Assembly: GCA_016932995.1 (NCBI GenBank) | Contig: JAFGBU010000042.1 | Location: 1-62,450 of the forward strand | Reading direction: 5' to 3' | Length of the DNA stretch: 62,450 nt | Source: Desulfovibrionaceae bacterium | Lineage (GTDB): Bacteria; Desulfobacterota; Desulfovibrionia; Desulfovibrionales; Desulfovibrionaceae | In this document: positions 14,510 to 18,833 of the stretch, one piece after another | How positions within the stretch are numbered: the first letter of the stretch is position 1 | Layout of the letters: each line of letters opens with the position of its first letter | Notes under the pieces: model-generated | What the model was told of the DNA's origin: nothing | Databases searched by the model: none | What the model saw: the letters and a program-made list of their open reading frames with translations, nothing else | Position numbers and translations under genes: made by a program

Positions 14510-15136
14510 CTACTCGCTCGGGCTCGGCTCGGCCTGGACCTGAAGGGCGTTGCGGCAGAACGAGACCAGTTGGGCCTCTATCTCTGACAGGTGCAGGGGC
14601 TCGAACAGGCGCATGCGCACGGTGCCGGTCAAAAGCCCGATGACCAGCAGCGCGCCCTGGTCCTCGGAGATGTTGCGGATCGAGCCGTCGCTGACCCCGA
14701 GGCGGATGCCCACGCGCACCAGGTCGATCATCTTGTCGTAGATGCGCTTCATCTCCTCGCGGCAGGGCTCGCCGATCCCGGGCATCTGGTAGGGGTTGTT
14801 GCGGTGGATGAGGTCGAAATCGGTCTCCCGGGTCTCGTAAAAGTGACAGTAGAGCCTAAGCAGGCTGATGATCATCTCCAGGCCGCTGGCAAGGCCCTTG
14901 AAGCGGAACTTGCGCTCCAGGTCGTCGAAGAAGTTCTCGCGGATACTCTTGAACAGATGGTAGAGCAGGTCCTCCTTGCTCTTGAAGTGCCGGAATATCG
15001 CGCCCTCCGAGACATTGGCCTCGCGGGCTATCTCGGACACCGGAGTGGCGTCGTAGCCCTTGACGGCGAAAAGCCTGGTGGCCGAGTCCATTATGGCCTG
15101 CTTCCTCTTGTTCATCCCTGCCCCGATTTTTTTCAC
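14510..15136 (-). CDS. TetR-family transcriptional repressor
   Basis: The N-terminal TetR HTH (about residues 12-60) has MDSATRLFAVKGYDATPVSEIAREANVSEG, cut here into its helices: AIMDSATRLFAVKGY, then TPVSEIAREANVSEGAIFRHF. The ligand-binding C-terminal region (65-208) is not specific to a known subfamily. I place the start at 15136 (AAGG upstream), but ATG at 15115, preceded by GGGGCAGGG, is nearly as good. The gene is divergent from two micro membrane-protein genes. AAGT-N4-GCTC motifs sit in the shared promoter region and again before the second micro gene, suggesting autoregulation and control of both. The ligand is unknown. Confidence 0.85.
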   Translation of the reverse strand: MKKIGAGMNKRKQAIMDSATRLFAVKGYDATPVSEIAREANVSEGAIFRHFKSKEDLLYHLFKSIRENFFDDLERKFRFKGLASGLEMIISLLRLYCHFYETRETDFDLIHRNNPYQMPGIGEPCREEMKRIYDKMIDLVRVGIRLGVSDGSIRNISEDQGALLVIGLLTGTVRMRLFEPLHLSEIEAQLVSFCRNALQVQAEPSPSE

Positions 15137-15143
15137 ATTTAGC

Positions 15144-15172
15144 TTGCCTTTCTAAAAAACGCCAGCTAAACA
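15144..15172 (+). promoter_or_regulatory. Promoter for the 29-residue micro membrane protein
   Basis: TTGCCT (15144-15149), 17 nt, TAAACA (15167-15172). The predicted start site near 15179 falls at the edge of the operator-like repeats at 15178-15213, as expected for a TetR-repressed promoter. Confidence 0.5.
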
Positions 15173-15177
15173 TACAA

Positions 15178-15213
15178 GCGAGCACTCACTTACATTTTTA
15201 AAAGTGTCTGCTC
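15178..15213. promoter_or_regulatory. Inverted operator-like repeats (candidate TetR operators)
   Basis: GAGCACTCACTT (15180-15191) and AAGTGTCTGCTC (15202-15213) are imperfect inverted copies, 10 of 12 positions matching, separated by 10 nt. Each contains AAGT-N4-GCTC. A third copy of the motif lies at 15521-15532 in front of the second micro gene. The location between divergent tetR and its neighbour is typical for TetR operators. Confidence 0.6.
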
Positions 15214-15295
15214 AGCAACGCCGGTCGCCCGGCGGGGGGGCCGCGGGAGCGCCGGCGGATTGGGACCCACACTTAAATTTCACAGGAGAAACACC

Positions 15296-15385
15296 ATGGA
15301 ATACGCAATCCCCATCACCATCCTGGCCCTGATCGTGAGCGGAGCGGTCATGTTCTTCATCCGCCAGAGCAAAACAAAGCATTAG
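15296..15385 (+). CDS. Micro membrane protein, 29 aa (paralogue 1)
   Basis: ATG at 15296 is preceded by AGGAG with proper spacing and encodes a 29-residue peptide starting MEYAIPITILALIVSG. It has one hydrophobic span (about 5-23) and a basic tail (FIRQSKTKH), predicting a single transmembrane helix with its C-terminus in the cytoplasm. A second gene at 15790 has the same MEYA-[IL]-PI start and near-identical initiation region (GGAGAAA, then ATGGAATACGC), so the two are duplicates. I recognise no family. The divergent TetR gene and operator-like repeats suggest inducible expression. Confidence 0.75.
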   Translation: MEYAIPITILALIVSGAVMFFIRQSKTKH

Positions 15386-15789
15386 CCGCCCGCAACGCTC
15401 GCACGAACCTCCGACCCCGGGGCCCTGCCCCGGGGTCAAGACCCCTTCCGCAAAAAACAGCGCCCCACTTTTGTTTTGCCCTGGGCTTGCTTTTTTCTTG
15501 AAATATGCCTATTTCATTGTAAGTAATCGCTCACAAAAATTTGGCTTGTAATTATTGAAAATAGGCCTGACCGCTTTTTGGTTGGCCAGTAAAAACAGGT
15601 CGTTGGCAACCGGCTTCAGCCGGGGCGACGGGTTTTGCTCCGGACAACAGGGACCGACCAGGACAAACCGCTAGCAAAGGGAGGCCCGGGGCGGAAAAAA
15701 CATCACCTTCATCTTGGACACGTATCAGGCCGTCTTTGACGGCCGCTGGGAACTACTGGAACCAAAATTAAAGTTATGGAGAAAATACG
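15386..15789 (+). other. 404-nt spacer between the two micro genes
   Basis: No ORF with a ribosome binding site was found. A perfect hairpin GACCCCGGGG/CCCCGGGGTC (15413-15437) follows paralogue 1; its right arm can instead pair as GGGGTC-AA-GACCCC (15432-15445), so two structures exclude each other. Neither has a T-tract. The middle is strikingly AT-rich for this genome (15490-15560) and carries the paralogue 2 promoter and operator-like site. GGCCGTC-TTT-GACGGCC (15728-15744) forms another perfect hairpin in what would be a leader of about 255 nt. Confidence 0.55.
15498..15534 (+). promoter_or_regulatory. Promoter and TetR-like operator of micro gene 2
   Basis: TTGAAA (15498-15503), 16 nt, TAAGTA (15520-15525). 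The -10 hexamer lies inside GTAAGTAATCGCTCAC (15519-15534), which matches 11 of 16 positions of the reverse-strand site at 15178-15193 and keeps AAGT-N4-GCTC. Binding there would block the promoter. Confidence 0.5.
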
Positions 15790-15864
15790 ATGGAATACGC
15801 CTTACCCATAATTGTGCTGGTTCTGGCGGGCGCTTTTCTGGCCTACAAGTTTATTAAAAAATAG
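15790..15864 (+). CDS. Micro membrane protein, 24 aa (paralogue 2)
   Basis: ATG at 15790 follows GGAGAAAATACG and encodes 24 residues beginning MEYALPIIVLVLAGAFLA and ending YKFIKK. One hydrophobic helix of about 15 residues is followed by a basic cytoplasmic end. It shares the first seven residues (Ile/Leu exchange) and initiation region with the 29-aa gene at 15296. Small stress-responsive or complex-associated subunits often look like this, but nothing identifies a partner; the nearest membrane complex is the convergent Tmc operon. A strong terminator lies about 185 nt downstream. Confidence 0.75.
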   Translation: MEYALPIIVLVLAGAFLAYKFIKK

Positions 15865-16084: not shown

Positions 16085-16324
16085 CTAGCGGCCGCTTATC
16101 TCGCCCTTGAGGGTCTTTTGGAGCCCTTCCAGGGTCCCTTTCCAGCCCGCGAGCTCGTCCCCGGGCAAAATCGAGACGATGATCGAGTCCTCCACGCTAA
16201 CCTCGACCACGATCTCGACGTCCCCGATGCTGAACACCGCCTCGGCCCAGCGCTCGGACGGCAGGCCCACGGCCTCGCAGTCGTAGTCCGTGCGCACCTC
16301 CGCAGTCATCCTGATCTCGCTCAC
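16085..16324 (-). CDS. Small acidic protein of unknown function downstream of tmcA
   Basis: The 79-aa protein has no signal peptide or membrane segment. It reads as alternating beta strands (residues 3-55: MTAEVRTDYDCEAVG, AVFSIGDVEIVVEVSVED, SIIVSILPG) with a short C-terminal helix (LEGLQKTLKG). GTG at 16324 is the start, with AAGGAGG 5 nt upstream. It lies 83 nt after tmcA on the same strand and is probably the last gene of that operon. One Cys (residue 16) is present. I do not recognise the family. Confidence 0.7.
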   Translation of the reverse strand: MSEIRMTAEVRTDYDCEAVGLPSERWAEAVFSIGDVEIVVEVSVEDSIIVSILPGDELAGWKGTLEGLQKTLKGEISGR

Positions 16325-16407: not shown

Positions 16408-16782
16408 CTACGGCCTCTTGTGACACTCGCCGCAGGTCACGGGGCCCTTTTTCTTTTCCAGGTGGCAGTCCTCGCACTGCTTGTGGTAGGCGAGCATGAG
16501 CGGGGTGCCCTCGGCCGTCTTGACCTCGTGGCAGTCCGCGCATTTCACCGGATCGCCCTCCACGAACCTGCCCTCCTCGACCCCCTGGTGGTGACAGGGC
16601 AGGCAGCCGTCGATGGCCGCCTTCTCGTTGTGCGCGTCGTGATCAAAGACCGCTGCCGGCCTCTGGGCCTGGCCAAAGGCCGGGTCGGCCAGCTGCTTGA
16701 TGTCCTCCTGCGAAAACGCGGGCAGGAGGAACAAAAGCACGGCCGCGGCGGCCAGTATCAAAATCATCGGCTTCTTGCTCAT
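16408..16782 (-). CDS. tmcA: Tetraheme cytochrome c3, TmcA
   Basis: TmcA is the periplasmic acidic cytochrome c3 of the Tmc complex, accepting electrons from the soluble type I c3/hydrogenase pool. A signal peptide (ILILAAAAVLLFLLPAFSQ) is followed by four CXXCH heme sites: CLPCH, CADCH, CEDCH and CGECH, with extra His ligands (VFDHDAH). The frame extends 20 codons further upstream, but ATG at 16782 has AAGGAGAC and starts the signal peptide. The mature protein is about 100 aa, as for other c3. It is the fourth gene of tmcDCBA. Confidence 0.93.
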   Translation of the reverse strand: MSKKPMILILAAAAVLLFLLPAFSQEDIKQLADPAFGQAQRPAAVFDHDAHNEKAAIDGCLPCHHQGVEEGRFVEGDPVKCADCHEVKTAEGTPLMLAYHKQCEDCHLEKKKGPVTCGECHKRP

Positions 16783-16811
16783 GTTTCCGTCTCCTTGCTT
16801 TTTCCCGCTCA

Positions 16812-18149
16812 TCACTCGGCCGCGTTGGGCTTTTCCATGCACTCGTAGATGATGTCGATGAGGAACTTGAGCTCCATGCCCAGCTTGTAGCCGTGGATGA
16901 TGTCTTCAAGTCCGCCGTGGCAGTTGTGGCAGGGGGAGATGCAGACCTCGGCGCCGGTGGCCTTGAGCTGCTCGGCCTTGACCCTGTTGCCCTGGACGCG
17001 GACGTTCTTGAACGGCGGGCCGCAGTTGATCACCCCGCCGCCCGCGGAGCAGCAGTAGTTGTGCTCGCGGTTCGGGATCATCTCTATGAAGTTCGGGCAG
17101 AAGGCCCGGACCACCTCGCGGGCCTTTTCGTGCAGGCCCCGGCCGCGGATGACGTTGCACGGGTCGTGCAGGGTCACGGTCTTCTCAAAGGGCTTGGCGA
17201 CCTTGAGCTTGCCGTCCCGCAACAGCTCCCAGTAGAACTCCAGGGCGTGGACCACGGGCACCGGGTGCATGCGCCAGGCCAGGGCCCGGTTGCCCATGTC
17301 GTAGATGGAGCGGAAGGCGTGGCCGCACTCGCCCATGACGATGCGCTTGACCTTGAGCCTCTGGGCGCACTCGAAGTGGTCCCTCTTGAGCCTGGCCATG
17401 ATCTCGTTGTCCCCGGTGTACATGGCCATGTCGCTGTTGTCCCAGCCGGTCGTGGCGGGCATGGTCCAGTCCATGCCGGCCTCGTTCATGAGCACCGCGG
17501 CCTGCATGATGAGCTGGGTCCTGAACTTGGGCTCCGGACCGATGACCGAGTACATGATCTCCGCGCCCTCCTTTTCCAGGGGGATGCGCAGGTTGGGTAT
17601 CTCGTCCCGGGCCTCGTCCTCCTGCCACTGCAGGGCGTCGATCCACTCGTCGTCCTTGACCCACATCTGGTTCATGGTCGAGGCGTGGCTGTGGGCCGTG
17701 TCCTGGATGTACTGCGGGATCACGCCCAGCAGGTGGCAGATCCTGCGGACCACGAGCATGATGTAGGCCGTGTCGATGCCGAACGGGCAGTACTGGACGC
17801 AGCGCTTGCACAGGTTGCACTCGGTGTAGGCGACCTGGGCGGCCTGGTAGATGAACTCCGGGCTGACCTTGCCCTTCTTGTCGAGCATGACCCACATGGT
17901 CTGCTTGACCTTGCCCACCGGCGAATAGCTCGGGTCGCCGTCGTGGGACATGTAGAAGTGGCAGGCCTCGGCGCACAGGCCGCAGCGCACGCAGATCTCC
18001 GAGTAGGCCTTGAGCTTGGCCCCGGTCTCCCCGGCCAAGACCTTCTGGATGGTCTTCTGTATCCTCTCCGGGGTCAGCCGGGCCGCGCCCTGGATCAACC
18101 CGATGTCGTCCACCTTTCTGTTCTGAATGCCGTATTCTACCGCACCCAT
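16812..18149 (-). CDS. tmcB: TmcB, HdrD/DsrK-like iron-sulfur protein
   Basis: This is the cytoplasmic catalytic-type subunit of the Tmc complex, related to heterodisulfide reductase HdrD and DsrK. Two 4Fe-4S motifs lie near the N-terminus: Cys53, 56, 59, 63 and Cys111, 114, 117, 121-Pro. Two CCG-type cysteine-rich domains follow (HDPCNVIRG, YCCSAGGG, CISPCHNCHGG), which in HdrD bind a special 4Fe-4S cluster. The start ATG has TAGGAGGAA upstream. The true electron acceptor of TmcB is not established. Confidence 0.92.
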   Translation of the reverse strand: MGAVEYGIQNRKVDDIGLIQGAARLTPERIQKTIQKVLAGETGAKLKAYSEICVRCGLCAEACHFYMSHDGDPSYSPVGKVKQTMWVMLDKKGKVSPEFIYQAAQVAYTECNLCKRCVQYCPFGIDTAYIMLVVRRICHLLGVIPQYIQDTAHSHASTMNQMWVKDDEWIDALQWQEDEARDEIPNLRIPLEKEGAEIMYSVIGPEPKFRTQLIMQAAVLMNEAGMDWTMPATTGWDNSDMAMYTGDNEIMARLKRDHFECAQRLKVKRIVMGECGHAFRSIYDMGNRALAWRMHPVPVVHALEFYWELLRDGKLKVAKPFEKTVTLHDPCNVIRGRGLHEKAREVVRAFCPNFIEMIPNREHNYCCSAGGGVINCGPPFKNVRVQGNRVKAEQLKATGAEVCISPCHNCHGGLEDIIHGYKLGMELKFLIDIIYECMEKPNAAE

Positions 18150-18173
18150 GGCGATTCCTCCTAGGGGCTTGTA

Positions 18174-18833
18174 TTACCAATCCTTGACGTGCCGCACCTT
18201 GCCGAACTCGGAGCCAGCGTAGGCCCGGGTGAAAAGCCCCAGGAACATGTGGCTGAGCCTGGTGAAGGGGATCAGGGCCAGCCAGGCCAGCCCGGACACG
18301 ATGTGCAGGATGATCATGAACTTGTAGTTGAATATCTGGTGATAGGCCAAAAAGCCGGTCACGAACGGCGAGGCGACCAGGATCAGGATGAGCCAGTCCT
18401 TGTAGCTGGTCACGTACCTGGCCCTCAGGTCCGTGGCCCGGCGCACGCCGAAGAACACGCAGGCCGCGATGACCGCCAGGGTCATGTAGTCGGCCGCCTG
18501 ATCCGGCAGGGTGGCCCAGGTGATCCCGAAGAACTTCTGCCACAGGACCACGTGCGCCAGCAGGAAGACGGGCACCGCGATCAGGCAGATGTGGAACAGG
18601 AAGGTGGCCACGGTCATGGCCGGGTTGCGCTTCCAGTTGGTGGCGTAGAACGGGATGCTCCAGACAAAGATGGAGCGCAGGCTGAACGGAAGGCTCATGT
18701 AGTCCAGGGAGGAGTAGTCTTTTGCCCTGGCCAGGGAGTACATGTAGATAAGTTTGTAGATGATGCCCACGACGAATATGCCCCAGCCGACCCAGGCCAG
18801 GGGACCGACAACGAAGTTATAAATCTCGACCAT
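18174..18833 (-). CDS. tmcC: TmcC, NarI/DsrM-like cytochrome b membrane subunit
   Basis: The 219-aa protein has about five to six membrane spans (starting at FVVGPLAWVGWGIFVVGIIY) and His residues within or near spans (HICLIAVPVFLLAHVV, ILHIVSGLAW), compatible with two b hemes as in NarI/HdrE/DsrM. It passes electrons between periplasmic TmcA and cytoplasmic TmcB. AAGGGGGG lies just upstream of the start. It lies between tmcD and tmcB with short spacers. Confidence 0.9.
   Translation of the reverse strand: MVEIYNFVVGPLAWVGWGIFVVGIIYKLIYMYSLARAKDYSSLDYMSLPFSLRSIFVWSIPFYATNWKRNPAMTVATFLFHICLIAVPVFLLAHVVLWQKFFGITWATLPDQAADYMTLAVIAACVFFGVRRATDLRARYVTSYKDWLILILVASPFVTGFLAYHQIFNYKFMIILHIVSGLAWLALIPFTRLSHMFLGLFTRAYAGSEFGKVRHVKDW

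Follow-up and report, generated by a model that had tools for sequence, protein, structure and literature searches.

Annotation frequently overlooks small membrane proteins, and for many of them the inducing signal is not known. DinQ and TisB are shorter than 30 amino acids, and dinQ is repressed by LexA. In PMC3567139, DinQ is described as a single-helix peptide of the inner membrane which is SOS-regulated and countered by an antisense RNA. YohP of Escherichia coli (27 amino acids) is, according to PMC12719787, oriented mainly N-out/C-in and associated with stress, the reported circumstances being starvation and stationary phase. AcrZ of E. coli appears in PMC7267776 as a small helix that binds a partner in the membrane and alters its activity.

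Here we describe a locus within a 62,450-nucleotide stretch of DNA from a Desulfovibrionaceae bacterium (assembly GCA_016932995.1, contig JAFGBU010000042.1, positions 1 to 62,450; hereafter called the window), in which two micro-genes for predicted membrane proteins lie next to the gene of a TetR-family repressor. Common to this locus and the DinQ and TisB systems are a single-helix peptide and a gene that is off, here presumably, until a stress signal arrives. Unlike DinQ and TisB, the present microproteins have a chargeless core, the regulator is a local TetR protein, the leader is inconsistently structured, the system is not known to have an antisense RNA, and no sequence relation was shown. 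No TetR protein paired with such a microprotein was found in the titles and abstract beginnings of the openly licensed literature among the matches listed, and neither Desulfovibrio nor TetR is mentioned in the main text of PMC10903887.

Results

Micro-gene copy 1, which is proximal to the TetR gene, occupies positions 15296..15385 of the plus strand (ATG 15296, TAG 15385) and encodes 29 amino acids, MEYAIPITILALIVSGAVMFFIRQSKTKH. Copy 2 extends on the same strand over 15790..15864 (ATG 15790, TAG 15864) and encodes 24 amino acids, MEYALPIIVLVLAGAFLAYKFIKK. The sizes of 29 and 24 codons and the gap of 404 nucleotides reported in a first-pass annotation of this DNA were thereby confirmed, as was the divergent orientation of the TetR gene, which is located on the minus strand at 14510..15115 (ATG 15115, with an in-frame GTG upstream at 15136; Pfam TetR_N, E 5.4e-19). 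Plus-strand ribosome-binding sites were read from the sequence at 15284..15288 (AGGAG, copy 1) and 15778..15781 (GGAG, copy 2). The start regions of both copies have GGAGAAA and ATGGAATACGC in common, in line with the near-identical translation starts that had been claimed. When aligned as units the two copies reach a score of 47, the best of 300 shuffles being 32; their whole upstream regions show no clear likeness (P 0.037; reverse-strand control 0.033). A GC-rich hairpin 3' of copy 1 (15413..15437, plus strand), also read from the sequence, is a possible terminator without a U-run; it received no terminator call, and the two hits of the scan in this region equal the shuffle mean.

Among 348 genomes of the class, a DNA-level search located the strict MEYA-x-PI pattern in the window genome alone, where it occurs twice. 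Relatives differ at one or more of its positions; the pattern was thus too strict, and we turned to TetR-led and profile searches. The former returned 58 matches in 54 of 285 Desulfovibrionaceae genomes, comprising the TetR protein of the window, seven relatives at 46–56% identity and, after a gap, proteins of 37% identity or less. All seven close relatives have beside them a divergent single-helix ORF of 26–30 amino acids whose start motif is related and which is preceded by a ribosome-binding site, such as MEYALPLGLLAIVAIFAIRFFVKQGKS in genome G089 and MDFILPVAILVVLAIGLGYYYVKQFRSH in G065. A search for conserved pairs of TetR and short ORFs had been suggested at the outset, and the idea was to be given up if close relatives failed to conserve the peptide start or the ribosome-binding site; in all seven cases TetR is paired with one micro-gene, and both elements are present.

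Within 1500 nucleotides on each side of 51 distant TetR genes, whose products are 26–37% identical to that of the window, no family-like ORF was found. These loci represent 22 of 50 from the first TetR search and 29 of 41 from a second; a further distant match, returned by both searches and located on contig C26 of the window genome, was read separately and turned out to be a TetR–sulfate permease pair. The best non-member among 8314 short-ORF candidates from the flanks of TetR loci had an E value of 3.3 and came from a carrier's locus; the best one beside a distant TetR had 7.7. Searching contigs with a single TetR sequence gave no match, and with a TetR alignment it gave three carriers plus eight other TetR loci, in whose flanks no ORF resembled the family. 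Plasmids contained no TetR match at 1e-15.

The TetR–sulfate permease pair of the window genome (G000:C26:2131-4855) consists of a TetR paralogue and, directly after it, a gene for a sulfate permease (Sulfate_transp, E 1e-104, plus STAS), and it has a site of its own, GAGCGAGTACTCAGTT. Judged by reading, a gene with a similar start comes after the related TetR gene at two further loci (L011 and L012).

A profile of the nine TetR-linked microproteins brought in four more members, located in other genera (G277, G279, G280 and G290). All four of these solo genes start with GTG, and none lies beside the linked-type TetR; a clear GGAG-type ribosome-binding site precedes three of them, the corresponding site in G290 being GGGGG. 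At E up to 1 the same profile also listed 161 of 285 genomes, mostly with pieces of longer proteins. The G290 member (E 2.7e-5, vs 2.9e-5 for a helix within a 589-codon frame) was accepted because of its short frame and start motif. By a second-round profile with all members included, the family comprises 13 members in 12 of the 285 Desulfovibrionaceae genomes; no new member appeared, the weakest member being found at E 1.1e-10 and the next hit at 3.6e-5. The duplicated pair described in the first-pass annotation is real in the window genome and peculiar to it, as each of the other 11 carriers holds one member.

To avoid testing the profile on sequences from which it was built, each group was left out in turn. 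All 13 members were recovered as the top candidates of their stretches (E 9e-5 for the weakest of them, as against 0.18 for the best non-member), including that of G290 at E 2.1e-10. A profile built without the window copies ranked copy 1 first (E 6.3e-9) and copy 2 second (8.9e-5) among 1026 candidates, the next being at 13. In 60 genomes from other families of the order there were two matches at E <0.01, located inside frames of 282 and 340 codons. A sample of 297 genomes of the phylum yielded, apart from the two window copies, three matches at E <1e-3, one of them from the window's own family and all inside frames of at least 419 codons.

The start of all 13 proteins conforms to [ED][YF]x[LI]P with an invariant proline (one extra residue precedes it in G063), which describes the relatives better than the MEYA-[IL]-PI start proposed originally; the latter holds for the two copies of the window genome. 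Every member carries a single acidic residue and nothing basic ahead of a core of 15 residues, which is chargeless and uniformly hydrophobic with a low moment (0.05–0.10), and two or three basic residues in a tail that varies in length and letters. According to the positive-inside rule the basic end of a membrane protein is cytoplasmic, and from the charge pattern we infer an N-out/C-in topology. A single hydrophobic helix is also what characterizes type I toxin peptides such as TisB and DinQ.

None of the families in Pfam, NCBIfam, PHROGs or PDB matched the members consistently, and the original proposal of an uncharacterised small-membrane-protein system is supported in this respect. Weak matches (best E 8.6e-4 in NCBIfam and 0.0012 in PHROGs) concerned one to three members each and differed between members. 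The AcrZ, KdpF and CydX families are represented in the Pfam and NCBIfam libraries; neither they nor other curated small membrane proteins were among the matches of the 13 members at E up to 1, with the reservation that very short queries score low. A PDB profile search with the microprotein gave a single hit, to MHC class I, at E 0.38.

At the codon level, close pairs show the pattern of purifying selection. G065 and G066 differ at 9.0 of 20.7 synonymous vs 5.0 of 60.3 nonsynonymous sites (dN/dS 0.13, Fisher P 1e-3), and G065 and G067 at 13.0 of 20.0 vs 5.0 of 61.0 (dN/dS 0.06, P 1e-6), these two pairs, which define the range of 0.06–0.13, being from one genus. For G279 and G290 the numbers are 12.0 of 16.7 vs 11.0 of 55.3 (dN/dS 0.10, P 2e-4). 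Purifying selection was not supported by the comparisons W1–W2 (0.45) and W1–G338 (1.42), and several distant pairs were saturated or nearly so.

Between the TetR gene and copy 1 lies an operator-like palindrome, AAGCGAGCACTCACTT (15176..15191). It agrees at 14 of 16 positions with the perfect palindrome AAGTGAGCGCTCACTT found between TetR and micro-gene in G062, a value reached by none of 2000 shuffles; the G062 palindrome was the reference for site scoring, and G062 is hence no test. The corresponding sites are identical to the reference at 15 positions in G063 (0 of 2000 shuffles) and 12 in G065 (P 0.0045), marginal in G067 and G066 (11 each; P 0.04 and 0.05), and not recognizable beyond chance in G089 and G338 (10 each; P 0.31 and 0.26). 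Similar operator-like sites had been claimed for both promoters; the one of copy 1 is well supported by these figures, and that of copy 2, AAGTAATCGCTCACAA (15521..15536; 12/16, shuffle P 0.008), must be considered tentative. Palindrome strength was mostly not above that of shuffles (P 0.05–0.99), so only site identity was used. The best upstream matches of 22 distant TetR genes amount to 10–13 of 16 positions, which argues that this type of palindrome is not peculiar to the linked group. In the window genome the degenerate consensus AAGYGAGYRCTCRCTT has one perfect match, at 15176-15191, and only one other with up to two mismatches, which is located before the TetR paralogue of the sulfate permease gene. 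A control pattern read backwards likewise hit each strand once when up to two mismatches were allowed, so that by count the paralogue's site does not exceed chance.

Directly 5' of the palindrome there is a promoter-like pair, TTGCCT-N17-TAAACA (15144..15172, plus strand; 7/12 of the consensus, with a pair in 27% of region shuffles). Its tentative counterpart before copy 2, TTGCTT-N17-TATTTC (15487..15515, plus strand; 6/12), is the second-best pair in a region where 60% of shuffles have any pair. On the same strand as the micro-gene, all eight TetR-linked regions possess a TTG-N16/17-TA pair (found in 9–29% of shuffles per region). In the window, G062, G063 and G065 the palindrome starts 1–6 bases past this pair, which is followed by related GAG/CTC repeats in G066 and G067 and by repeats of other sequence in G089 and G338. 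A strict sigma-70 scan of the region came back without a promoter. The arrangement of pair and palindrome is compatible with a repressor that silences the micro-gene by blocking the polymerase. Accessibility of the ribosome-binding sites followed no pattern (0.23–0.62). In genus g4 (L006–L008) the leader between operator and micro-gene contains the conserved hairpin-like blocks GACGGATGGNCGACGGCGG and TTCGNCGGAACCGTTC, a degree of conservation that exceeds the need of a promoter and a ribosome site.

AlphaFold2, applied to the window TetR along with three relatives, predicted a TetR fold (pLDDT 89.7) with the TetR_N helix-turn-helix and the all-helical ligand domain typical of this family. The best PDB matches of the model were FadR, MtrR, TtgR and other TetR regulators, with MtrR (Z 19.5, rmsd 2.4, 191 residues aligned) and FadR 5gpc (Z 18.8, rmsd 2.3, 184 residues aligned) matching over the whole chain; no ligand is deducible from the predicted fold and pocket. 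By sequence the eight linked TetRs form a distinct subfamily: they are at least 43.5% identical to each other, and no distant TetR exceeds 37% to any of them. C90 and H175 are present in all eight linked and in none of the 51 distant TetRs (with one gap in the case of H175), and M129 and G115, likewise found in all eight, occur in one and four of the distant proteins, respectively. C118 is shared by the linked TetRs and by 26 of the 51 distant ones. A sensor based on a thiol or a soft metal is possible in the linked TetRs, and is to be taken only as a lead.

The neighborhoods of the eight TetR-linked loci were compared over roughly 12–22 kb with typing of selected neighbors. The only gene besides TetR that is common between genera encodes a class III cytochrome c, located about 0.5 kb and 6 kb from the micro-genes of the window and G089. 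The window further contains a gene pair with the Pfam domains Proteasome and AAA_2, which we take to be HslV/HslU, and a cytochrome/Fe-S cluster. YchJ is found near the pair in genus g4; an ammonium transporter, a P-II protein and a histidine kinase in genus g2; TerC and AsmA in G089; Omp85 and an acetyltransferase in G338. That the pair is kept while, with one exception, each genus has other neighbors suggests a functional tie in addition to mere proximity. The comparison revealed no conserved gene next to the pair that could encode a partner, and the membrane target therefore is a guess. Three solo members of genus g37 have a divergent EamA transporter gene as neighbor, and upstream of the G277 member lies a gene with the IMS domain of Y-family polymerases. 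EamA was rejected as a partner, as the three genomes in which it adjoins the micro-gene all belong to one genus.

In two g37 genomes (L113 and L114) the solo micro-gene is located between the divergent EamA gene and a convergent gene of the sulfate permease family. The minus strand of the window at 16408-18833 carries in a row the genes of a class III cytochrome c, an Fe-S/CCG-domain protein and a membrane protein, an order similar to that of the Desulfovibrio electron-transfer cluster tmc. Between this cluster and the micro-genes there is an ORF of 79 amino acids (16085-16324, minus strand) without a match in Pfam or NCBIfam.

A tree of HslU proteins (28 rows from 30 genomes; G338 without a match, the two-piece G087 left out, the G063 row cut to 322 residues, and 8 of 25 inner branches open) places the carriers at three positions in the family, a distribution that does not discriminate between loss and transfer.

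Discussion

The repressor and its micro-gene probably constitute a self-contained sensor-effector unit, in which release of TetR by a ligand would switch on an N-out/C-in helix that acts on the membrane or on a partner within it. Based on the site, the layout and the protein family, a TetR dimer would bind the palindrome at the promoter start of the micro-gene and block transcription, and the fold suggests that a ligand fitting an AcrR/FadR-type pocket would release the repressor. The derepressed gene would then give rise to a protein of 24–30 amino acids that inserts as one helix with its acidic N-terminus outside and its basic C-terminus inside. Our best guess is that this helix acts by contact and, in a way reminiscent of AcrZ or YohP, binds and adjusts either a complex of membrane proteins or the membrane as such when the repressor senses stress. 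In the window genome the second micro-gene may have a weaker operator of its own. We are evenly divided on the broader proposal that the microproteins represent an undescribed membrane protein family of 24–30 amino acids and that a specialised TetR subfamily, marked by C90, serves as a one-repressor, one-microprotein device whose whole output is a single membrane helix.

Equal size and a single helix would also be compatible with a stress peptide like TisB, DinQ or TimP that depolarises the membrane, is toxic in excess and is curbed by TetR and perhaps an antisense RNA, and the varying copy number among genomes agrees with that. DinQ, likened to tisB-istR in PMC3567139, likewise combines SOS regulation with an antisense RNA. 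Moreover, four of nine leaders are more stable than their shuffles with z below −2 (window copy 1, −3.2; G338, −2.6; G067, −3.2; G066, −2.1). However, z is +0.3 in G063, −0.2 for copy 2 and −0.9 in G065, i.e., there is no consistent structure, and the inferred leader of G063 is only about 50 nucleotides long. Rfam returned two chance-level matches in the region and none near the gathering score. The core is uniformly hydrophobic, chargeless and of low moment in 13 of 13 members, and the solo members keep a ribosome-binding site without TetR. A toxin of this kind is thus unlikely; the core without a polar face, the inconsistently structured leader and the solo members are the reasons why we prefer an AcrZ-like or YohP-like helix to a pore-forming toxin.

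Size and the N-out/C-in charge pattern would equally suit a small subunit that assists a respiratory or transport complex or its assembly (such as CydX, KdpF or a cytochrome oxidase small assembly protein), in which case TetR control would be incidental. One of the 13 members touches NF038351, the family of the cytochrome oxidase small assembly protein, at E 8.6e-4, but its 19.1 bits, the best of all, stay below the cut-off of 27.5, and the other 12 have no match to this family at E up to 1. The class III cytochrome c lies within 7 kb at two loci (window and G089), and in one genus the solo gene is divergent from EamA in three genomes and beside the sulfate permease family gene in two of them; yet no respiratory or transport gene is common to most loci, and a patchy occurrence in 12 of 285 genomes is unlike that of a core subunit. 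We consider this alternative quite improbable.

It is very doubtful that the microprotein feeds back on its repressor by using the basic tail to recruit or sequester TetR at the membrane. The co-occurrence of both genes in differing neighborhoods and the presence of the basic tail in 13 of 13 members would be in agreement with such a role, but length and letters of this tail vary, and four members are not beside TetR. These solo members, which lack the linked TetR, indicate that the microprotein serves an independent function and is not a mere accessory of TetR. That the micro-genes are chance ORFs or decayed fragments, as their very short length and the restriction of the strict motif to the window genome might suggest, is contradicted by their conservation, by the selection seen in close pairs and by the leave-one-out profiles, and is extremely unlikely.

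Because all of the close TetR relatives identified come with a micro-gene, the preferred reading, a ligand-released repressor controlling one membrane helix, seems to describe a genuine and so far overlooked membrane-protein system that can be switched. The adjoining repressor provides a natural handle on it because the ligand would reveal the stress answered by the microprotein, and solo members in other genera allow the role of the protein to be separated from its control. The work adds a family without a Pfam, NCBIfam or PHROGs match in sulfate reducers and their relatives.

With YohP the microproteins share their length, the predicted N-out/C-in topology and a presumed association with stress; YohP is reported from starvation and stationary phase, and for the present family no link was found in Pfam. 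They resemble AcrZ as small membrane helices, partner binding being established for AcrZ and a guess here; they differ in that AcrZ was absent from the Pfam hits and no efflux pump was noticed among the typed neighbors of the loci. The repressor has the fold of the FadR/MtrR/TtgR/AcrR group across its whole chain, whereas it is 14–23% identical to these proteins among the matches listed, carries C90, M129 and H175, and has a micro-gene as its divergent neighbor. The TetR–sulfate permease pair of the window genome is alike in having a TetR paralogue and a similar site two mismatches away, and unlike in its 30% identity, its permease gene on the same strand after TetR and its lack of a micro-gene. 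Small stress-linked membrane proteins are known as a kind; new here are a family that matches no library entry and, as read from the DNA, the regulatory arrangement.
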